A stretch of DNA of 49,702 bases, taken from positions 1 through 49,702 of the forward strand of contig DASYTI010000177.1 of assembly GCA_036002485.1 (NCBI GenBank), in the 5' to 3' direction. Both the position numbers and the translations under genes were made by a program. The notes under the pieces were generated by a model. It made no database searches. It was not told where the DNA came from and saw only the letters and a list, made by a program, of their open reading frames with translations. The DNA comes from Candidatus Methylomirabilota bacterium (GTDB lineage Bacteria > Methylomirabilota > Methylomirabilia > Rokubacteriales > CSP1-6). Of the stretch, positions 10,021 to 26,086 are shown piece after piece; position 1 is the stretch's first letter; the number at the start of each line of letters is the position of its first letter.

Positions 10021-10117
10021 GAGACTAACCTGCGAGAGGCTTTATTCCTAGAGCCGGGCTCCGCGCCCGCGACAACGGACTGTCCCAAGTAGCTCTCATG
10101 CCCTCGCGCGCAGGAGC

Positions 10118-10260
10118 GTTCCACTTCGAGCGCCGGCGTCGCCGGCGCAGTTTTAGGATTGCTCGCCTCGGACGGTGGGGCCCCAGCCCCACGACGTCCT
10201 GCGGCTCGCCCTGCATCGGGGGAGGCATCGGAAGGGGGGCGGAGCCCCCCTCCGACCCAT
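10118..10260 (-). repeat. Family A structured intergenic repeat, full copy A2
   Basis: This fills most of the 240-bp gap (10021-10260) between the tolC-like stop and the adaptor gene and abuts the tolC stop. Three hairpins are visible: GCGCCGGC/GCCGGCGC (10130-10137 and 10141-10148), GTGGGGC/GCCCCAC (10175-10181 and 10186-10192), and GGGGGGC/GCCCCCC (10234-10240 and 10244-10250). Compared with copy A3 the middle stem has a paired change (T-A here, C-G there). I see nothing else in 10021-10117 beyond the adaptor's leader. Confidence 0.8.
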
Positions 10261-16400: not shown

Positions 16401-16510
16401 CTCTTCTCGGGAACCGGAGGGGACAGGATCATCGGCTTTTGGCTGCAACCATTCTATGGATGGCGGGCAAAGAGTCAAGCCCGCGATTCTCCTATGTTAA
16501 GATGAGGTTC

Positions 16511-19324
<2,814 letters not shown>

Positions 19325-19449
19325 GTGCCGGGCCGATGTACTTCGCCATACTTCGTTCTCAGTCGCCCGCGACGCTCAACGTACATACAGGTACGCCTCG
19401 CGCCGCGGGCTCCTTCGGGCCTCGTCTGGCTCGCACCTCGGCCCGGCAC
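19325..19449. repeat. Family B long nested palindrome, short copy B2
   Basis: It begins directly after the nrdJ stop. Outer arms are a perfect 12-bp inverted repeat, GTGCCGGGCCGA (19325-19336) and TCGGCCCGGCAC (19438-19449). An inner stem pairs 19365-19375 with 19400-19410 (one mismatch). The centre 19372-19402 is identical over 31 nt to the centre of copy B1 (23531-23561) and contains GTAC-ATACAG-GTAC. Copy B2 is about 90 bp shorter than B1. The strong dyad could end or protect the nrdJ transcript. Confidence 0.8.
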
Positions 19450-19467
19450 GAGCAGTAGGAGAAGCGC

Positions 19468-19770
19468 GTGTTCAGCGGCGGTGACTACGACGAGGTGGCG
19501 CGCTGGCTCGCGAACTTCGCCACCTCCCATGCCAAGCGCGAAGATCTCCACGCGGAAGTGCGGCTCGACCGTGAGGGCCCGCGCGAGGGCAAGGCCTACG
19601 GGCTGCGCGTCAGGATCGGCGAGCGGCTCTCATCCGAGATCGAGCTGGCCTACCCGGAAGTGAGAGATCGCCGCGGCAGCCTGGCCTGGTGCCAGGCCCT
19701 CGCCGAGCGGATCCGCGGGCTCGTTCGCGACACAGTGGCGCCGGCGGCGGGCCAGCGAAGATCCGCCTAG
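19468..19770 (+). CDS. Hypothetical protein, 100 residues
   Basis: GTG start 19468 with a well-placed AGGAG (19457-19461). The sequence begins MFSGGDYDEVARWLANFATS, has alternating charged and hydrophobic strands (LRVRIGERLSSEIELAYPEV) and ends with a helix AWCQALAERIRGLVRDTVA. It is soluble, with no signal peptide or known motif. Only 1 nt separates it from the permease start (GTG 19772), so the two are co-transcribed. Function not recognised. Confidence 0.7.
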   Translation: MFSGGDYDEVARWLANFATSHAKREDLHAEVRLDREGPREGKAYGLRVRIGERLSSEIELAYPEVRDRRGSLAWCQALAERIRGLVRDTVAPAAGQRRSA

Positions 19771-19771
19771 G

Positions 19772-21325
19772 GTGACGGTGGCGCGCCGCGGCCCGCGCTG
19801 GGTCGCGCCCGGAGACGTGAACGCCTTCTTCGGGCTCGCCCTCGACAACACCACCCAGCTCGTCATCCTCTCCAGCATCCTCATCGGCGTCTTCAAGTTC
19901 CCGCCCGACCTCGTCCTCCAGCGCATCGTGCCGGGAACCGCCGCGGGCGTGCTCATCGGCGATCTCGTGTACACGTGGCTCGCCGTGCGCCTGGCCCGCG
20001 CCTCGGGTCGGGACGACGTCACCGCCATGCCCTTCGGCATCGACACCCCGTCGCTCTTCGGCATCGTCTTCGGCGTCCTCGGGCCCGCGATGCTCGCCAC
20101 CGGAGACCCGGTCCTCGCGTGGAAGATCGGCATGGGGGTCACCGTGGCCATGGGTGCCCTCAAGCTCGTGCTGGCGTTCGCCGGTGATTGGGTCCGGCGT
20201 CTCGTGCCGAGAGCGGCGCTCCTCGGCTCCATCGCGGGCGTGGCCATCCTGCTCATCGCCTTCCTGCCCGCCCTCAAGGTCTTCGCCGACCCGCTGGTGG
20301 GGCTCGTCTCGCTAACCGTGGTCCTCGTGGCCCTCGTGGGCCGGGTACGCCTTCCCGGCGGCGTGCCCGGCGCATTCGTCGCCGTGCTGGCAGGCGCGGC
20401 CGTCTTCTGGCTCCGCGCCGCCAGCGGCTGGGGGCCGGCATCGACGATGGAGCCACCCCACCTCGCCCTCGCCGTCCCCTGGCCGACCCTGGCATGGGTC
20501 GAGACCTTCGGCGCGGTCTTGCCGTACCTGTCCCTGGCCATCCCGTTTGCCGTCGCCACGGTGATCGGGGGTATCGACAACACCGAGTCCGCCATCGCGG
20601 CGGGGGACGAGTACCGCGCGCGAGATATCTTGCTGACGGAAGCCGTGGCGACCATGGCCGCCGGGCTTTGCGGGGGAGTCATTCAGAACACGCCGTACAT
20701 CGGCCATCCCGCCTACAAGGCCATGGGCGCGCGGGCGGGCTACACGCTGGCCACGGGCCTCGCCATGGGCGTGGGCGCTTCGCTCGGACTCGTGGGGCTT
20801 CTCGTGAGCGTCTTGTCCGAGGCCGCCGTGGCGCCCATCCTGATCTTCATCGGCCTGGAGATCACCGCCCAGGCCTTCATCGCCTCGCCGGCGCGACATG
20901 CGGCGGCCGTCGCCGTCTCCTTCATTCCCGCCGTGGCCGCCCTCGTCCTGATCCAGATCAACACGCTCCTGGCCTCGGTGGGGAAGGGCGCGGCGGATCT
21001 CCGCGGCGACGGCCGGCTCGCCTACGAGCACCTCCTCGTGCTCGGCAATGGCTTCATCGTGACCGCGCTCCTGTGGGGATGGGCCCTCGTGAGCATCGTC
21101 GAGGGACGCCTCCGTCGCGCGGCCGCCGTGTTCCTCGTGGCGGGGACGGCGACGCTCTTCGGGGCCATTCACTCGCCGCGGGCGAGCGGGGCGCTCTTCT
21201 GGCCATGGTCGGCGGGAAGCGCGTTTCCGCTCCTGCTCGCCGCCGGCTATGGACTGGGCGCGCTGATCCTCGTGCTCCTGTCGGCTTCGACGGGCAGGAC
21301 ACAAGCGCGCCCCCCGGCGGGCTAG
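19772..21325 (+). CDS. NCS2-like (xanthine/uracil/purine) permease
   Basis: 517 residues with about 12-14 hydrophobic segments. Family-type features are LALDNTTQLVILSSILIG near the N-terminus, GRDDVTAMPFGIDTPSLFG (the segment that in relatives reads DVTALPYGINT), VIGGIDNTESAIAAGDEYRA, and GVIQNTPYIGHPAYKAMGARAGYT. These fit AzgA/COG2252-like nucleobase permeases. The substrate is unproven; guanine/hypoxanthine or another nucleobase is likely, possibly linked to nucleotide salvage since nrdJ is close. It starts with GTG next to the upstream stop and converges with the reductase gene across repeat A3. Confidence 0.75.
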   Translation: MTVARRGPRWVAPGDVNAFFGLALDNTTQLVILSSILIGVFKFPPDLVLQRIVPGTAAGVLIGDLVYTWLAVRLARASGRDDVTAMPFGIDTPSLFGIVFGVLGPAMLATGDPVLAWKIGMGVTVAMGALKLVLAFAGDWVRRLVPRAALLGSIAGVAILLIAFLPALKVFADPLVGLVSLTVVLVALVGRVRLPGGVPGAFVAVLAGAAVFWLRAASGWGPASTMEPPHLALAVPWPTLAWVETFGAVLPYLSLAIPFAVATVIGGIDNTESAIAAGDEYRARDILLTEAVATMAAGLCGGVIQNTPYIGHPAYKAMGARAGYTLATGLAMGVGASLGLVGLLVSVLSEAAVAPILIFIGLEITAQAFIASPARHAAAVAVSFIPAVAALVLIQINTLLASVGKGAADLRGDGRLAYEHLLVLGNGFIVTALLWGWALVSIVEGRLRRAAAVFLVAGTATLFGAIHSPRASGALFWPWSAGSAFPLLLAAGYGLGALILVLLSASTGRTQARPPAG

Positions 21326-21366
21326 GAGTCTGTCTCAGTGAGCGCCAAGCTCTCGCCAGCCGGAAT

Positions 21367-21510
21367 GTTCCACTTCGAGCGCCGGCTTCGCCGGCGCGAT
21401 CCTCAGATTGCTCGCCTCGGACGGCGGGGCCCCAGCCCCGCGACGTCCTCCGGCTCGCCCTGCGTCGGGGGGAGGCTTCGAAAGGGGGGCAGAGCCCCCC
21501 TCCGAGCTAT
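21367..21510 (-). repeat. Family A structured intergenic repeat, full copy A3
   Basis: This lies between the permease and the convergent reductase gene and abuts the reductase stop codon. It has the same three hairpins as A2: GCGCCGGC/GCCGGCGC (21379-21386 and 21390-21397), GCGGGGC/GCCCCGC (21424-21430 and 21435-21441), and AGGGGGGC/GCCCCCCT (21483-21490 and 21494-21501). By eye the two copies are close to identical in order and spacing, and the middle stem differs by a paired change. Confidence 0.82.
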
Positions 21511-22842
21511 TTAGCCGGAGAGAAGGGCCAGCATCTCGTCATCGCTGGCGAACTTGAACTCCTCGACGCCTTCGCGGCTGGCGCGCTCGCGCTCCGCGTC
21601 CTCGATGCGGAGGACTTCGTCATAGGTCACGGGCCGTGCCCCGGCTGTGCGGAGCTCGTGCATGATCGCCGTCACCGGACGCTCCGCCTCGGCGGGCGAG
21701 CGCGTGGGCCGCGAGCCGAGGATCTTCAAGATGTGCTTGATCCCCGTCTCGGCGTCGAGACGGGCCCGGCCGACCACGCCGTCACTGGCCCGCCGAGCCC
21801 AGCCGACCACGAAAACGTCGGCGAGGGGCTGGCCCAGGGCGGGATCCCAGACCTGATAGGCCGCGGCCGGGTCCTGCTCTTCCCCGGGCGCCGTCACGTA
21901 GAGCCCCTCCTTGTAGGGCAGCCCCGCCCGCTCGTCCACGCGGTCGCCCACCGCGAAGACCACGGTGTCGCACGGTATGAGCGAGATCTCACCCGTGCCG
22001 ACCGCGCTGATCCGCTCGCCCTTGCGCTCGAGCCGCGTCTCCTCGACCTCGAGGGCGATGACGCGACCGCCTTCGGTCACCACGCGCCTCGGGGAAGCCA
22101 GGAAGCGGAAGGACAGGCGGGCCCGGCAGCGGCTCTCGGCCTCTGGCCGGGCGGCCAGCGCCTTCAGGACGTCCTCCGCGCTCTGTCCCGCGGCCTCGAG
22201 GCGGGGGCGAATGCGCTCGACCTCGCGCCGGTACGCCTCCCGGTCGAAGGCGTCCTCGACATCCTCGAACTCCCGGTCGTCGTAGGCCTTTTCGTGCGGC
22301 CCCCGGCGCGCCACGGCGATGATCTCATCGCACTCGCAGAAGTGCGCGCAGTAGTTCGCGATGTCCACCATGACATTGCCGACGCCCACGATGGCCACCC
22401 GACGTCCGATGGGGAAATGGCGCTCCGAGAAAGGGGGAAGGCGGTTGTAGTGATAGACGAGGTCCTTGGCATGGTAGACGCCCGGCCGTCGCTCGCCCTC
22501 GATGCCGAGGTACTTGGTGCCCTGGGCGCCGATGGCGAAGACCACGGCGTCGAAGCCGGCCGCGCGGAGGGCGGGAACGCTCAAGGGGGCGCCCTCGCCC
22601 ACCGCCACGTGACCGAGATAGGTGACGAGCGGATCCGTGAGGATCTTGTGGAACTGCTTTCGGAGGCCGCCCTTCATCTTGTACTTGTTGAGGAAGATCC
22701 CGTACTCGGCCAGTCCGCCCGCCTTGATGTCTCGGTTGATCAGGAGGACGCGGCATCCCGCCGCGGCCAGGGCGCGGGTCGCGAACAGCCCCGCCGGTCC
22801 CGCGCCCACGACCGCCACCGCGTGGGTCGCCGCTTCGGTCAT
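21511..22842 (-). CDS. FprA/adrenodoxin-reductase-like NADPH:ferredoxin reductase
   Basis: About 443 residues from ATG 22842 (an upstream ATG at 22860 is less typical). The N-terminal FAD-binding Rossmann is AVAVVGAGPAGLFATRALAA. The NADP-binding segment is VAIVGVGNVMVDIANYC, matching the GNGNVALDVAR pattern of FprA, and near the C-terminus VVGWARRASDGVVGRARLDA corresponds to the GW-KRG-tGViGtNk motif that closes over FAD in FprA. It would pass electrons between NADPH and ferredoxin. It is divergent from cytochrome c and could feed the same redox chain; that link is only positional. Confidence 0.85.
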   Translation of the reverse strand: MTEAATHAVAVVGAGPAGLFATRALAAAGCRVLLINRDIKAGGLAEYGIFLNKYKMKGGLRKQFHKILTDPLVTYLGHVAVGEGAPLSVPALRAAGFDAVVFAIGAQGTKYLGIEGERRPGVYHAKDLVYHYNRLPPFSERHFPIGRRVAIVGVGNVMVDIANYCAHFCECDEIIAVARRGPHEKAYDDREFEDVEDAFDREAYRREVERIRPRLEAAGQSAEDVLKALAARPEAESRCRARLSFRFLASPRRVVTEGGRVIALEVEETRLERKGERISAVGTGEISLIPCDTVVFAVGDRVDERAGLPYKEGLYVTAPGEEQDPAAAYQVWDPALGQPLADVFVVGWARRASDGVVGRARLDAETGIKHILKILGSRPTRSPAEAERPVTAIMHELRTAGARPVTYDEVLRIEDAERERASREGVEEFKFASDDEMLALLSG

Positions 22843-22893
22843 GGGCCGAGACGATAGCACAGGGCTCTTCGGGCCGCGAATGGAGGTGAATCG

Positions 22894-22919
22894 AAGATTC
22901 GGCTTGACCGTCGAATCTT
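22894..22919. promoter_or_regulatory. Inverted repeat overlapping a possible -35 box
   Basis: AAGATTCG (22894-22901) and CGAATCTT (22912-22919) form a perfect 8-bp inverted repeat with a 10-nt spacer, so half-site centres are 18 bp apart, close to two helical turns. TTGACC (22904-22909) lies in the spacer and could be a -35 box for the cytochrome c gene; the -10 17-18 nt further on (CTAACT or TAACTG) is poor. It is a plausible operator, unverified. Confidence 0.4.
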
Positions 22920-22931
22920 TCGGATGCTAAC

Positions 22932-22980
22932 TGATACGCGACTTGTCAGTGATACGCGACGTGCCCCAGTGATACACGAC
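22932..22980 (+). repeat. Three 11-bp direct repeats upstream of cytochrome c
   Basis: TGATACGCGAC occurs at 22932-22942 and 22950-22960, and TGATACACGAC at 22970-22980, with starts 18 and 20 bp apart. Flanks are also partly shared (CAG before copies 2 and 3). It may be a multi-site regulator-binding region or the left-over end of an insertion sequence, since some IS families (for example IS21) carry tandem terminal repeats. Nothing else coding is seen in 22843-23009. Confidence 0.6.
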
Positions 22981-23009
22981 GTACCAATGACGTATGCCAA
23001 GGGGGAGCG

Positions 23010-23426
23010 ATGGCGATGGGGGTGAGACGGTCAGCCGTGATGGCGACTCTGGCGCTCGCGCTGGCCGCGGTGATCGCGCCGGCCGGACTGGCGACAGCCC
23101 AGGCTCCGTGGACGGCGCCCGCTAGCGAGAAGGGCAAGAAGAACCCGCTGCCCGCCGATGCCAAGACCATCGAGCAAGGCAAGAAGGTGGCGGAGGTCAA
23201 CTGCGTCACCTGTCATGGGCCCAAGGGCAAAGGCGATGGAGCTGCCGCGGTGGCCCTCAACCCCAAGCCGGCCGATTGGACATCGAAGAAGGTGCAGGCC
23301 GAGTCGGACGGCGAGATCTTCTGGAAGATCAGCAACGGCCGCGGGCCGATGCCCGCGTGGAGGCATCTGCCCGAGAACGAGCGCTGGGCGCTGGTCCGGT
23401 ATCTACGTACTCTCGCCGTCAAGTAG
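23010..23426 (+). CDS. Secreted c-type cytochrome (class I, single haem)
   Basis: 138 residues. Signal peptide 1-31 (VMATLALALAAVIAPAGLAT). Haem-binding CVTCH is at residues 65-69, a Gly-rich loop follows (GPKGKGDGAA), and Met114 in NGRGPMPAW is the likely sixth ligand. It ends with the helix ENERWALVRYLRTLA usual for class I folds. A strong ribosome-binding site (AAGGGGGAGCG) precedes ATG 23010. A small periplasmic electron carrier; partner unknown. Divergent from the ferredoxin reductase and followed by the long palindrome B1. Confidence 0.9.
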   Translation: MAMGVRRSAVMATLALALAAVIAPAGLATAQAPWTAPASEKGKKNPLPADAKTIEQGKKVAEVNCVTCHGPKGKGDGAAAVALNPKPADWTSKKVQAESDGEIFWKISNGRGPMPAWRHLPENERWALVRYLRTLAVK

Positions 23427-23437
23427 CGCCGAGGGTG

Positions 23438-23653
23438 GGTGCTGGGCCAATTTGCTTCGCCAGTTCTACTCAGCCCTCGCTTCGCAGCTGCGCTGCTCAG
23501 CTCGAAGGGCCACGTTCTCGGTCGCCTGCAACGCTCAACGTACATACAGGTACGCCTCGCGTTGCAGGCTCCCTCGGGCGTGGCAGTTCGAGCCGAGGGC
23601 ACAGCCCGAGGTGAGGGCTGAGTTGAACTGGCTCGCAACTTGGCCCAGTACCC
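23438..23653. repeat. Family B long nested palindrome, full copy B1
   Basis: It occupies most of the 344-bp gap 23427-23770 and starts 12 nt after the cytochrome stop. The outer ends GGGTGCTGGGCCAA (23438-23451) and its near-complement at 23640-23653 pair with one mismatch; further in, CCAGTT/AACTGG and TCAGCCCTC/GAGGGCTGA continue the dyad. Closest to the centre is a perfect 11-bp stem (23524-23534 with 23559-23569) enclosing GTACATACAGGTAC. Total about 216 bp. The remaining gap (23654-23770) shows no gene and no clear promoter. Confidence 0.8.
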
Positions 23654-23770
23654 AGCGGGTCGGCCTCGGCCCTCACCCATTTGACTTGAGGAAATGACCT
23701 GCTCCTCGCCCGGCTGAAGTTTGCCAGGCAGGCGAGCACGACGCCGCAGTAGTATCTTGCCGGGCTGCCC

Positions 23771-26086
23771 ATGAGCGACGACGAGCAGGTCTCCCCGGAT
23801 CCGACTCCGCAAAGCCTCCACGGCGCGCTCCTCGAGATCCGACAGGGCATCGAGTCGCTGGCTGACCGGCTCCGGAGGATCGGGCTTCCCTCCGCCTCTG
23901 CCGCGCCGCGGGCCGCCGCCGAGGCTCCGGAAGAGCGAGACGCCCTCACCGTCGGCGAAGAGATCCTGGCCATCCCCTCTCGCGGCCTCGAGCCCTCTCA
24001 GATCTTTTCTCTCGCCATGGATCACGTGGCGCGTCTTCTCACGGCCGACCGCGCCATGCTCTTCACCTGGGAGGCGGAGGCTTCGAGGCTCGTGCCGCGC
24101 GCCGGTCGCGGGTTCCGTCGAGACGATCTCGACTCCATCTCCATCAAAGCCGGCGAAGGGCTCGTCGGCCAGGCCTTCCAGGACGAGAGGCTCGCCCGGG
24201 TTACCGGAGGCGCCCCCCGCATCGTCGAGGATCCTTTCCTGGTCCTCTTCCCCGTTTACGACGCGATCGCGGTGCCGGTCCGCACGGGCGGCAGCGCAGC
24301 GGGCATTCTCTACGCGGGCCGCCGCGCGCCGCGGCTGGCATTCTCGGAGCACGAGATCTTGCTCCTGCTCGTGATCGCCGATCGGATCGGCAATGCCCTG
24401 GGCCATCGTGACGCGATCGAGACCACCCGAGGCCACATTGGCCGGCTCCGCGAGCTCGAGGTCTTCCTGGGCCATGTCCTGGTGGGACAGGACATGGAGG
24501 CCGTCCTCGCGCGTGCGTGCGAAGTCGCCTGCCGGCTGACCGAGGCGCGTGTCGCGGCCATCGGCGTGCCGGGCGGCAGGGGGGGGTTTGCCCTCGCCGC
24601 GGCGCTGGGGCTCTCCGCCGACGTCCTCCACACCGTGCGCGTCGATACCGACCGTGGACTGACGGGGGAGATGTTCGCGACGCAGCGCCCGGCGTCATGC
24701 CGGGACATTCAAGGCCGCGCGGGATCCGAGGACGACTTCCTTCTCCAGGTGGGACTGCGCGCGTGTCTTGCCGTGCCCGTGCGTCTCCGGCGCCAGACCG
24801 TGGGCGCGCTCTATGTGGGCGACCCCGAGGCACGCGAATTCTCCCCTGACCAGATCGAAGCCGTCCAGGTGCTGGCCTCCATGCTCGCCCTGGGAATGGA
24901 AAACAACCGGCTCTACGGCGAGGTGCAGGGCGCTCTCCAGGGCCTCGAGAGCGCCCAGGAGCAGCTCGTCCAGACCTCGAGCGCGCGGGCGGTGGGCGCC
25001 ATGGCGGGCGGCATCGCCAACGAGTTCAACAATATCCTCGCCATCGTGCTCGGCAAGACTCAGCTCATGCTCTCGCGCGTGTCCGACGGGCCGCTGCGCG
25101 AGGACCTGGCCGACATCGAGGAGGCGGGCTGGCGCGCCGCGGATATCGTGCGGCGCCTTCAGGGCTTCGCGGCGACCAGCACGGACGATGCCACGGGGCC
25201 GGTGGACTTGGTCGCGGTCGTGCAGGACGCGGTGGCGCTGACCCGCGCGGTGTGGAAGGACGAGGCAGAGGCGCGCGGGGTGCAGATCGAGGTCGTGACC
25301 GATCTGGATCGTCTCCCTCCGATGGAGGGGCAGGCGACCGCGCTCCGCGAGGGCATCATGAACCTGATCCTCAACGCCATCGACGCCATGCCGCAGGGCG
25401 GCCGTCTGGGCCTGACCGCGCGCCGCGTGGACCCGGGAGTCGAGCTCCAGGTCTCGGACACCGGGGAGGGGATGCGCGAGGACATACGCCGGCGCATCTT
25501 CGATCCATTCTTCACGACCCGGGCCCCGCATCGTACCGGACTCGGCCTCTCGGTCGTCCGGGGGGTGGTCAGCCGCCACCGCGGCACCGTGCACATCCGC
25601 AGCGAGCAAGGCGCGGGTACGACGGTGGCGCTGTGGTTTCCCGCCGCTTCTGAACATGATGTGGAGGCGTCTCGGCCCGTGGCCGCAGAGGGCGGGGCGA
25701 CCGCACGGTCGGACGTCGCCTCCATCCTGGTGCTCGAGGACGAAGACCCGATCCGGGCCCTGCTCGTGGAGGCCCTGACCTCCGCAGGCCACCACGTCGA
25801 GTCGGCGACCGACGGCTTGACGGGCCTCGCGCGCTTTCAGGGTGGCGCCTTCGACGTCGTGCTGACCGATCTCTCGCTGCCGGAATGCTCGGGGCTCGAT
25901 GTCGCCAGCTCGGTGAAGCGCCTCCGTCCCGAGACTCCGGTCGTCCTGATCACGGGCTGGGGCCACCTGCTCGATCCCGAGCGTCTGCGGGAGGCGGGGG
26001 TGGACTTGATGCTCGTCAAGCCGTTCAGGATCGAGCGCGTGCTCGCCGTGCTCGCCGACGCGCTGCGCCTGCGTCCTTCCAAGTAA
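23771..26086 (+). CDS. GAF-GAF histidine-kinase-like protein with C-terminal receiver; phosphoacceptor His replaced by Asn
   Basis: 771-residue hybrid signalling protein: two GAF domains (about 55-205 and 228-385), a dimerisation helix, a kinase-type ATPase domain (about 515-630; N-box NLILNAIDAM, SDTGEGM, then FFTTRAPHRTGLGLSVVRGV), and a receiver domain (about 650-768) with its phosphoacceptor Asp700 (LTDLSLPE) and LVKPF. In the H-box the expected His in GGIA-H-EFNNIL is Asn (Asn417; codon AAC at 25019-25021). All other motifs of the ATPase and receiver are kept. So normal His autophosphorylation looks impossible unless another residue serves. No transmembrane segment; cytosolic. Confidence 0.9.
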   Translation: MSDDEQVSPDPTPQSLHGALLEIRQGIESLADRLRRIGLPSASAAPRAAAEAPEERDALTVGEEILAIPSRGLEPSQIFSLAMDHVARLLTADRAMLFTWEAEASRLVPRAGRGFRRDDLDSISIKAGEGLVGQAFQDERLARVTGGAPRIVEDPFLVLFPVYDAIAVPVRTGGSAAGILYAGRRAPRLAFSEHEILLLLVIADRIGNALGHRDAIETTRGHIGRLRELEVFLGHVLVGQDMEAVLARACEVACRLTEARVAAIGVPGGRGGFALAAALGLSADVLHTVRVDTDRGLTGEMFATQRPASCRDIQGRAGSEDDFLLQVGLRACLAVPVRLRRQTVGALYVGDPEAREFSPDQIEAVQVLASMLALGMENNRLYGEVQGALQGLESAQEQLVQTSSARAVGAMAGGIANEFNNILAIVLGKTQLMLSRVSDGPLREDLADIEEAGWRAADIVRRLQGFAATSTDDATGPVDLVAVVQDAVALTRAVWKDEAEARGVQIEVVTDLDRLPPMEGQATALREGIMNLILNAIDAMPQGGRLGLTARRVDPGVELQVSDTGEGMREDIRRRIFDPFFTTRAPHRTGLGLSVVRGVVSRHRGTVHIRSEQGAGTTVALWFPAASEHDVEASRPVAAEGGATARSDVASILVLEDEDPIRALLVEALTSAGHHVESATDGLTGLARFQGGAFDVVLTDLSLPECSGLDVASSVKRLRPETPVVLITGWGHLLDPERLREAGVDLMLVKPFRIERVLAVLADALRLRPSK

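Follow-up and report, generated by a model that had tools for sequence, protein, structure and literature searches.

The window, a stretch of 49,702 nt, contains a long palindromic element at 23438..23653 (+ strand), 3' of a small gene at 23010..23426 (+, taken from the ORF list) whose product, which we take to be cytochrome c-like, carries the motif CVTCHG. The gene ends with the stop codon TAG at 23424-23426, and the element begins 11 nt past it. The sequence-only reading had described a 216-bp nested palindrome at this position, and folding of the 216 nt bore this out with a value of -155.8 kcal/mol, against a mean of -85.8 (sd 5.1) for shuffled sequences (z -13.8; 0 of 200 shuffles were as good). 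The dyad is one long interrupted hairpin with an 11-bp stem, a 4x4 internal loop, and the apical stem CGTAC/GTACG around ATACAG. The conserved core, CTCAACGTAC-ATACAG-GTACGCCTCG, is located at 23534..23559 (+) and comprises the asymmetric CTCAA/CCTCG internal loop and the apical stem. Comparison of copies delimited the remaining parts, all on the + strand: the left end arm GGTGCTGGGCCAATTTGCTTCGCCA at 23438..23462, an end form common to many copies; an inserted module in the left arm at 23463..23512, which is missing from the short form (compared by eye); an inserted module in the right arm at 23580..23627; and the right end arm CTGGCTCGCAACTTGGCCCAGTACCC at 23628..23653, which was also placed by end-motif matches. 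The window copies terminate in the inverted repeats GGTRCYGGGCC.../...GGCCCRGYACC, and the window-type end pair is given by GTRCTGGGYCAATTTG and CAACTTGGCCCAGTAC. A search of the source genome for GNACTGGGYCAATTTG with at most one mismatch returned 48 matches, both ends counted, and none in the control.

A shorter second copy, also noted from the letters alone, was confirmed directly 3' of the nrdJ stop codon TAG (19322-19324): it spans about 125 nt at 19325..19449 (+), has its core at 19375..19400 (+), and is 90% identical to the first copy over the central 67 nt. The exact core is common to both copies, and an 18-nt core probe, for which 0.01 matches with up to three mismatches would be expected in the window, matched both exactly. 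Judging from this comparison, the 216-bp form corresponds to the nrdJ-type palindrome of about 125 nt carrying a roughly 50-nt module in each arm. Three forms were distinguished in the source genome: (a) short elements of about 125 nt with GTACTGGG-type ends, such as the nrdJ copy; (b) long elements of about 215 nt with the same type of ends and the module in both arms, such as the cytochrome copy; and (c) elements with CAGGCNGCTGAAAAA or related ends, to which 25 of 27 additional cores belonged. Hybrids of (a) and (b) with the module in one arm were recognized by eye, in the left arm of L001 and in the right arm of L011, L017, L022, and L023. In L002 and L012 the long-form module of about 50 nt occurs in tandem within the left flank, and a portion of a similar module recurs elsewhere in the genome with no exact core listed nearby. 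In L022 (approximately 1400-1620) the palindrome extends into what seems to be the beginning of an adjacent gene (CTCAGTCATC / GATGACTGAG), in the manner of a flank copied in inverted orientation.

The core with a loop of 3-14 nt, CTCAACGTAC-N-GTACGCCTCG, was found 45 times in the source genome (control, 0), so that it is far from being confined to the two copies seen in the window; the element and its end type are dispersed in many copies at unrelated sites. A relaxed core pattern gave 109 matches in the same genome against 11 in the control, some of the 109 being the inserted module. Among the relaxed-pattern variants, CGTAG/CTACG and CGTAT/ATACG retain the apical pair, the closing pair may also be G-C or T-A, and one copy is mismatched. 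Within the phylum the core was present in 18 of 95 genomes, the source genome included, at 20-60 copies in the four other genomes of the genus and in G077 and G088-G090, and at 0-3 copies in the remaining phylum genomes. A scan of genome contigs located it in at least 120 stretches elsewhere, mostly of Nitrospira. By record title, the 80 stretches listed comprised 58 from Nitrospira/Nitrospirota, nine from Rokubacteria, seven from Geobacter, Desulfuromonadales or other deltaproteobacteria (L075 and L079 are Geobacter records), and six from other taxa, which may be mis-binned contigs or chance matches; L062 and L065 seem to be coincidental hits within coding regions. The exact core had no match in viral contigs, blastn with the 216-bp element returned none in plasmids or in the E. 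coli genome collection, and one full-length Nitrospira copy likewise had none in plasmids. A search of Rfam with window positions 19200-24000 returned four weak matches (E 2.8-8.9), all far below their cut-offs and none within either copy.

The two copies in the window are insertions. At each of the two sites the element was absent from all four other genus genomes examined (G057, G058, G059, and G060), and the stop codon was already present there. The sites of L009, L013, L016, and L018 were empty in G057, and some of them also in other relatives, the flanks being joined and the element omitted; the sites of L176, L179, L180, L181, and L188 were empty in G057 and that of L190 in G060. Flank alignments were gappy at several of these empty sites, where the exact junctions are not always resolved. 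Element-like sequence was found at the L196 and L198 sites in G057, at the L179 site in G059 and G060, and at the L190 site in G059. Because the L179 and L190 sites are occupied in a further relative, the element may have been lost there along a single lineage; some insertions are shared between relatives or have disappeared from one lineage.

A likely mover and target can be named for one of the end types. The subfamily with CAGGNTGNTGAAAAA ends (CAGG ends), whose full-length Nitrospira copies measure about 196-200 bp between the ends, is flanked by YTAR 4-mers that were identical on the two sides in 32 of 36 end pairs, compared with a mean of 11.5 and a maximum of 22 in 20,000 shuffles. Of 379 raw end-motif combinations, these 36 were flanked by YTAR at both ends and a further 104 at one end only; the 36 take in five insertion sequence (IS) copies, six viral-contig elements with other interiors, and possible chance pairs (L109, L031). 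The identical 4-mers were CTAG (16), CTAA (6), TTAG (6), and TTAA (4). Transposases of the IS5 family generate a 4-bp YTAR target duplication. Ends of this type were found on both sides of five of the 20 transposase loci in related genomes (L260-L263 and L265), 1290-1373 bp apart and with identical YTAR 4-mers in each case; others had a CAGG-type end on one side or a different end. The L263 transposase matched NF033581 (IS5_4) at 270 bits with a cut-off of 140, and the L255 transposase fragment scored 124.9 bits, below the cut-off. In the 14 core-bearing genomes that hold 12 Nitrospira-type-end loci and three deltaproteobacterial ones, five had any transposase match; the best (L324, 65% identical) lay in the same Nitrospira genome as the hairpin element L042 and had CAGG-type ends, and its frame contains an internal stop. 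A 163-aa IS5-type query had two matches in G059 and none in the copy-rich source genome, G057, G058, G060, G077, and G088-G090; the mover may have been lost or be absent from these MAGs. For the window end type, the global permutation test for a target duplication was not significant (p 0.105, n=27), and an IS-sized pair of window-type ends did not occur among the matches listed in five genus genomes. In viral contigs, pairs of the same CAGG-type ends 149-160 bp apart, with matching YTAR 4-mers and a different interior (L236, L246, L247, L252, and L254), are probably other miniature elements of the same IS type. A unit of about 840 bp at L132:4045-4891 has CTAG on both sides and contains part of a hairpin together with a frame of 233 aa; it may represent the capture of a gene fragment.

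The window element is thus very probably a copy of a non-autonomous, MITE-like DNA transposable element, that is, a gene-less long imperfect hairpin mobilized in trans by a transposase acting on its ends. The empty sites and inverted ends, together with the target duplication and same-ended IS copies of one subfamily, lend good support to the miniature transposable element that the sequence-only reading had offered as one of three guesses. An IS5-type transposase would have moved the CAGG-end hairpins, and a different transposase the window end type.

Pairing of the arms was assessed in 30 non-redundant CAGG-end copies, window-type copies being outside this alignment. The consensus hairpin had 29 pairs, 16 of them with two-sided changes, and 95.6% of the cells were paired, compared with 38-43% in slid controls; two-sided cells numbered 85, against 19.5 in shuffled and 8-17 in slid alignments. 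The arms covary strongly in the CAGG subfamily, and those of the window end type also covary by eye. Three breaks in the stem have constant sequence in the CAGG-end copies: the CTCAA/CCTCG loop at the apex; about 20 nt outward of it, a loop of CGTT/CCTYG; and, another 20 nt outward, a G.G mismatch in CTGAAAAA/TTTTTGAG. As the aligned copies had been found through their core, its constancy among them is partly by construction. In eight further copies found through their ends and compared by eye, CTCAA was kept in six and the apical C-G was changed to G-C in three; two were strongly diverged. The pattern raises the question of why the internal loops are fixed, also from one end type to another, while the arms change freely. 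The loops may serve as a recognition feature or may protect the palindrome. A tentative and rather doubtful extension is that the central hairpin of about 75 nt with the fixed CTCAA/CCTCG and CGTT/GGCCTTG loops is a functional module that can be transplanted as a unit and is bound, as single-stranded DNA or as RNA, by a conserved protein. In several phyla it would have been fitted between unrelated transposon ends, and natural selection would then maintain the module rather than the transposon. G-U pairs occupied six cells in the 13-pair outer helix of the CAGG-end copies, and two inner pairs were mostly G-U; as they are rare in the outer helix and frequent in those inner pairs, DNA and RNA readings are both possible.

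Arms that change yet stay complementary, modules carried in one arm or in both, and the continuation of the L022 palindrome into flanking gene sequence would also be consistent with gene-less fold-back DNA spread by replication template switching or recombination and requiring no transposase. The precise inverted-repeat ends and YTAR duplication of the CAGG subfamily, and the many unrelated sites, argue against this explanation, which we consider unlikely.

A position after stop codons was frequent. In 51 of the 99 copies with settable ends, the stop of a long open frame lay no more than 6 nt from the left end, against 60 of 1758 control positions. These open-frame tests were used in place of a home-made gene scorer, which put 11 of 21 source-genome copies, and 15 of 123 from elsewhere, within genes that it called and was judged unreliable in GC-rich DNA. 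Among CAGG-type copies, 55 of 86 had a stop near the left end, namely TAG in 45, TAA in ten, and TGA in none, although background stops are most often TGA (41 of 62 in the source genome; 253 of 541 in the others); of the 31 lacking a left-end stop, ten still carry TAG or TAA where element and flank meet. Because the YTAR target contains TAG or TAA, such hairpins come to sit right at stop codons, and this, plus the loss of in-gene insertions, explains most of the placement. A few window-end copies are also at stops, TGA included (L210, L213), and a YTAR target would not account for these. An apparent orientation preference relative to genes (51 left and 14 right of 99) was rejected after being traced to right-truncated copies: in the 18 full-length copies with a core and YTAR on both sides, a stop was present at the left end in eight, at the right in nine, and at either in 14. 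The alternative that the element is a 3' UTR RNA, a terminator or mRNA stabilizer selected for its RNA structure and sited after stops, would fit the excess of left-end stops, the strong covariation, and the mostly G-U inner pairs. The frequent place after stops is, however, largely accounted for by the YTAR target, the full-length copies show no orientation bias, L003, L004, and L006 seem by eye of their flanks to sit between divergent genes, and the outer helix has so few G-U cells, so that this reading appears very improbable.

Also very improbable is a REP/BIME element moved as single-stranded DNA by a Y1 (HUH) RAYT transposase, to which the dispersed hairpins often found after stops, the non-significant target-duplication test of the window end type, and one Y1 match each in the copy-rich genomes G057, G059, G088, and G089 would conform, but against which stand the lack of any PF01797 match in the other five of nine copy-rich genomes (the source genome, G058, G060, G077, and G090) despite their 20-45 copies, the 0-1 copies in seven g28 genomes (G001-G007) with 3-13 Y1 matches, the length of 125-216 nt instead of 20-40, and the 4-bp target duplication of the CAGG subfamily.

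REP sequences are described as extragenic hairpins of 20-40 bp with a GTAG or CGTC tag, in many copies and phyla (PMC3733652). The present elements are likewise many-copy extragenic hairpins found across phyla, but they are longer, and neither tag lies immediately at an end of either window copy (125 and 216 nt). Bacterial MITEs are short and gene-less, with inverted ends, many intergenic copies, size variants, and truncated copies lacking an end (PMC10969869). All these traits recur here; the present family differs in having one structured core in several phyla, more than one kind of end, and fixed asymmetric internal loops. The IS5-family IS (NCBIfam IS5_4; DUF772) share their ends and the 4-bp YTAR duplication with the CAGG subfamily; in contrast, they are about 1.3 kb long with a transposase gene, have no hairpin core in the roughly 60 nt compared at each terminus, and differ in their ends from the window copies. 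The ERIC/YPAL sequences of enterobacteria are imperfect palindromes of about 130-170 bp, intergenic and structured as here; the difference lies in the blastn result for the E. coli genome collection, the ERIC sequences themselves not being part of that comparison. An attC-like reading was dropped, since conservation here lies in the centre instead of the ends.

Small palindromic repeats are usually described genus by genus, often with no named mover, and the single hairpin core connects elements of Rokubacteria, Nitrospira, and deltaproteobacterial records. Chunjie, a 178-235 bp MITE of Geobacter uraniireducens (PMC10969869), may belong to the same family; the present core also occurs in Geobacter, and the two were compared by description. 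For Geobacter, partly palindromic sequence families in multiple copies are on record (PMC2700814, PMC2996986), as are multicopy sequences for Pelobacter (PMC3543383), and Geobacter copies of the element may already be in print. None of the titles, abstract openings, and passages covered describes the core.

Two further features of the window were observed. The nrdJ frame (16439-19324) contains a presumably intein-like insert, named by its motif (CLAGETLVATDQGL...MIANGLVVHQC), within ribonucleotide reductase. A second, unrelated repeat family is present at 10097-10239 and 21346-21488 (143 nt, 83% identical), with a 51-nt part at 1885-1935, and includes the palindrome GCGCCGGCTTCGCCGGCGC.
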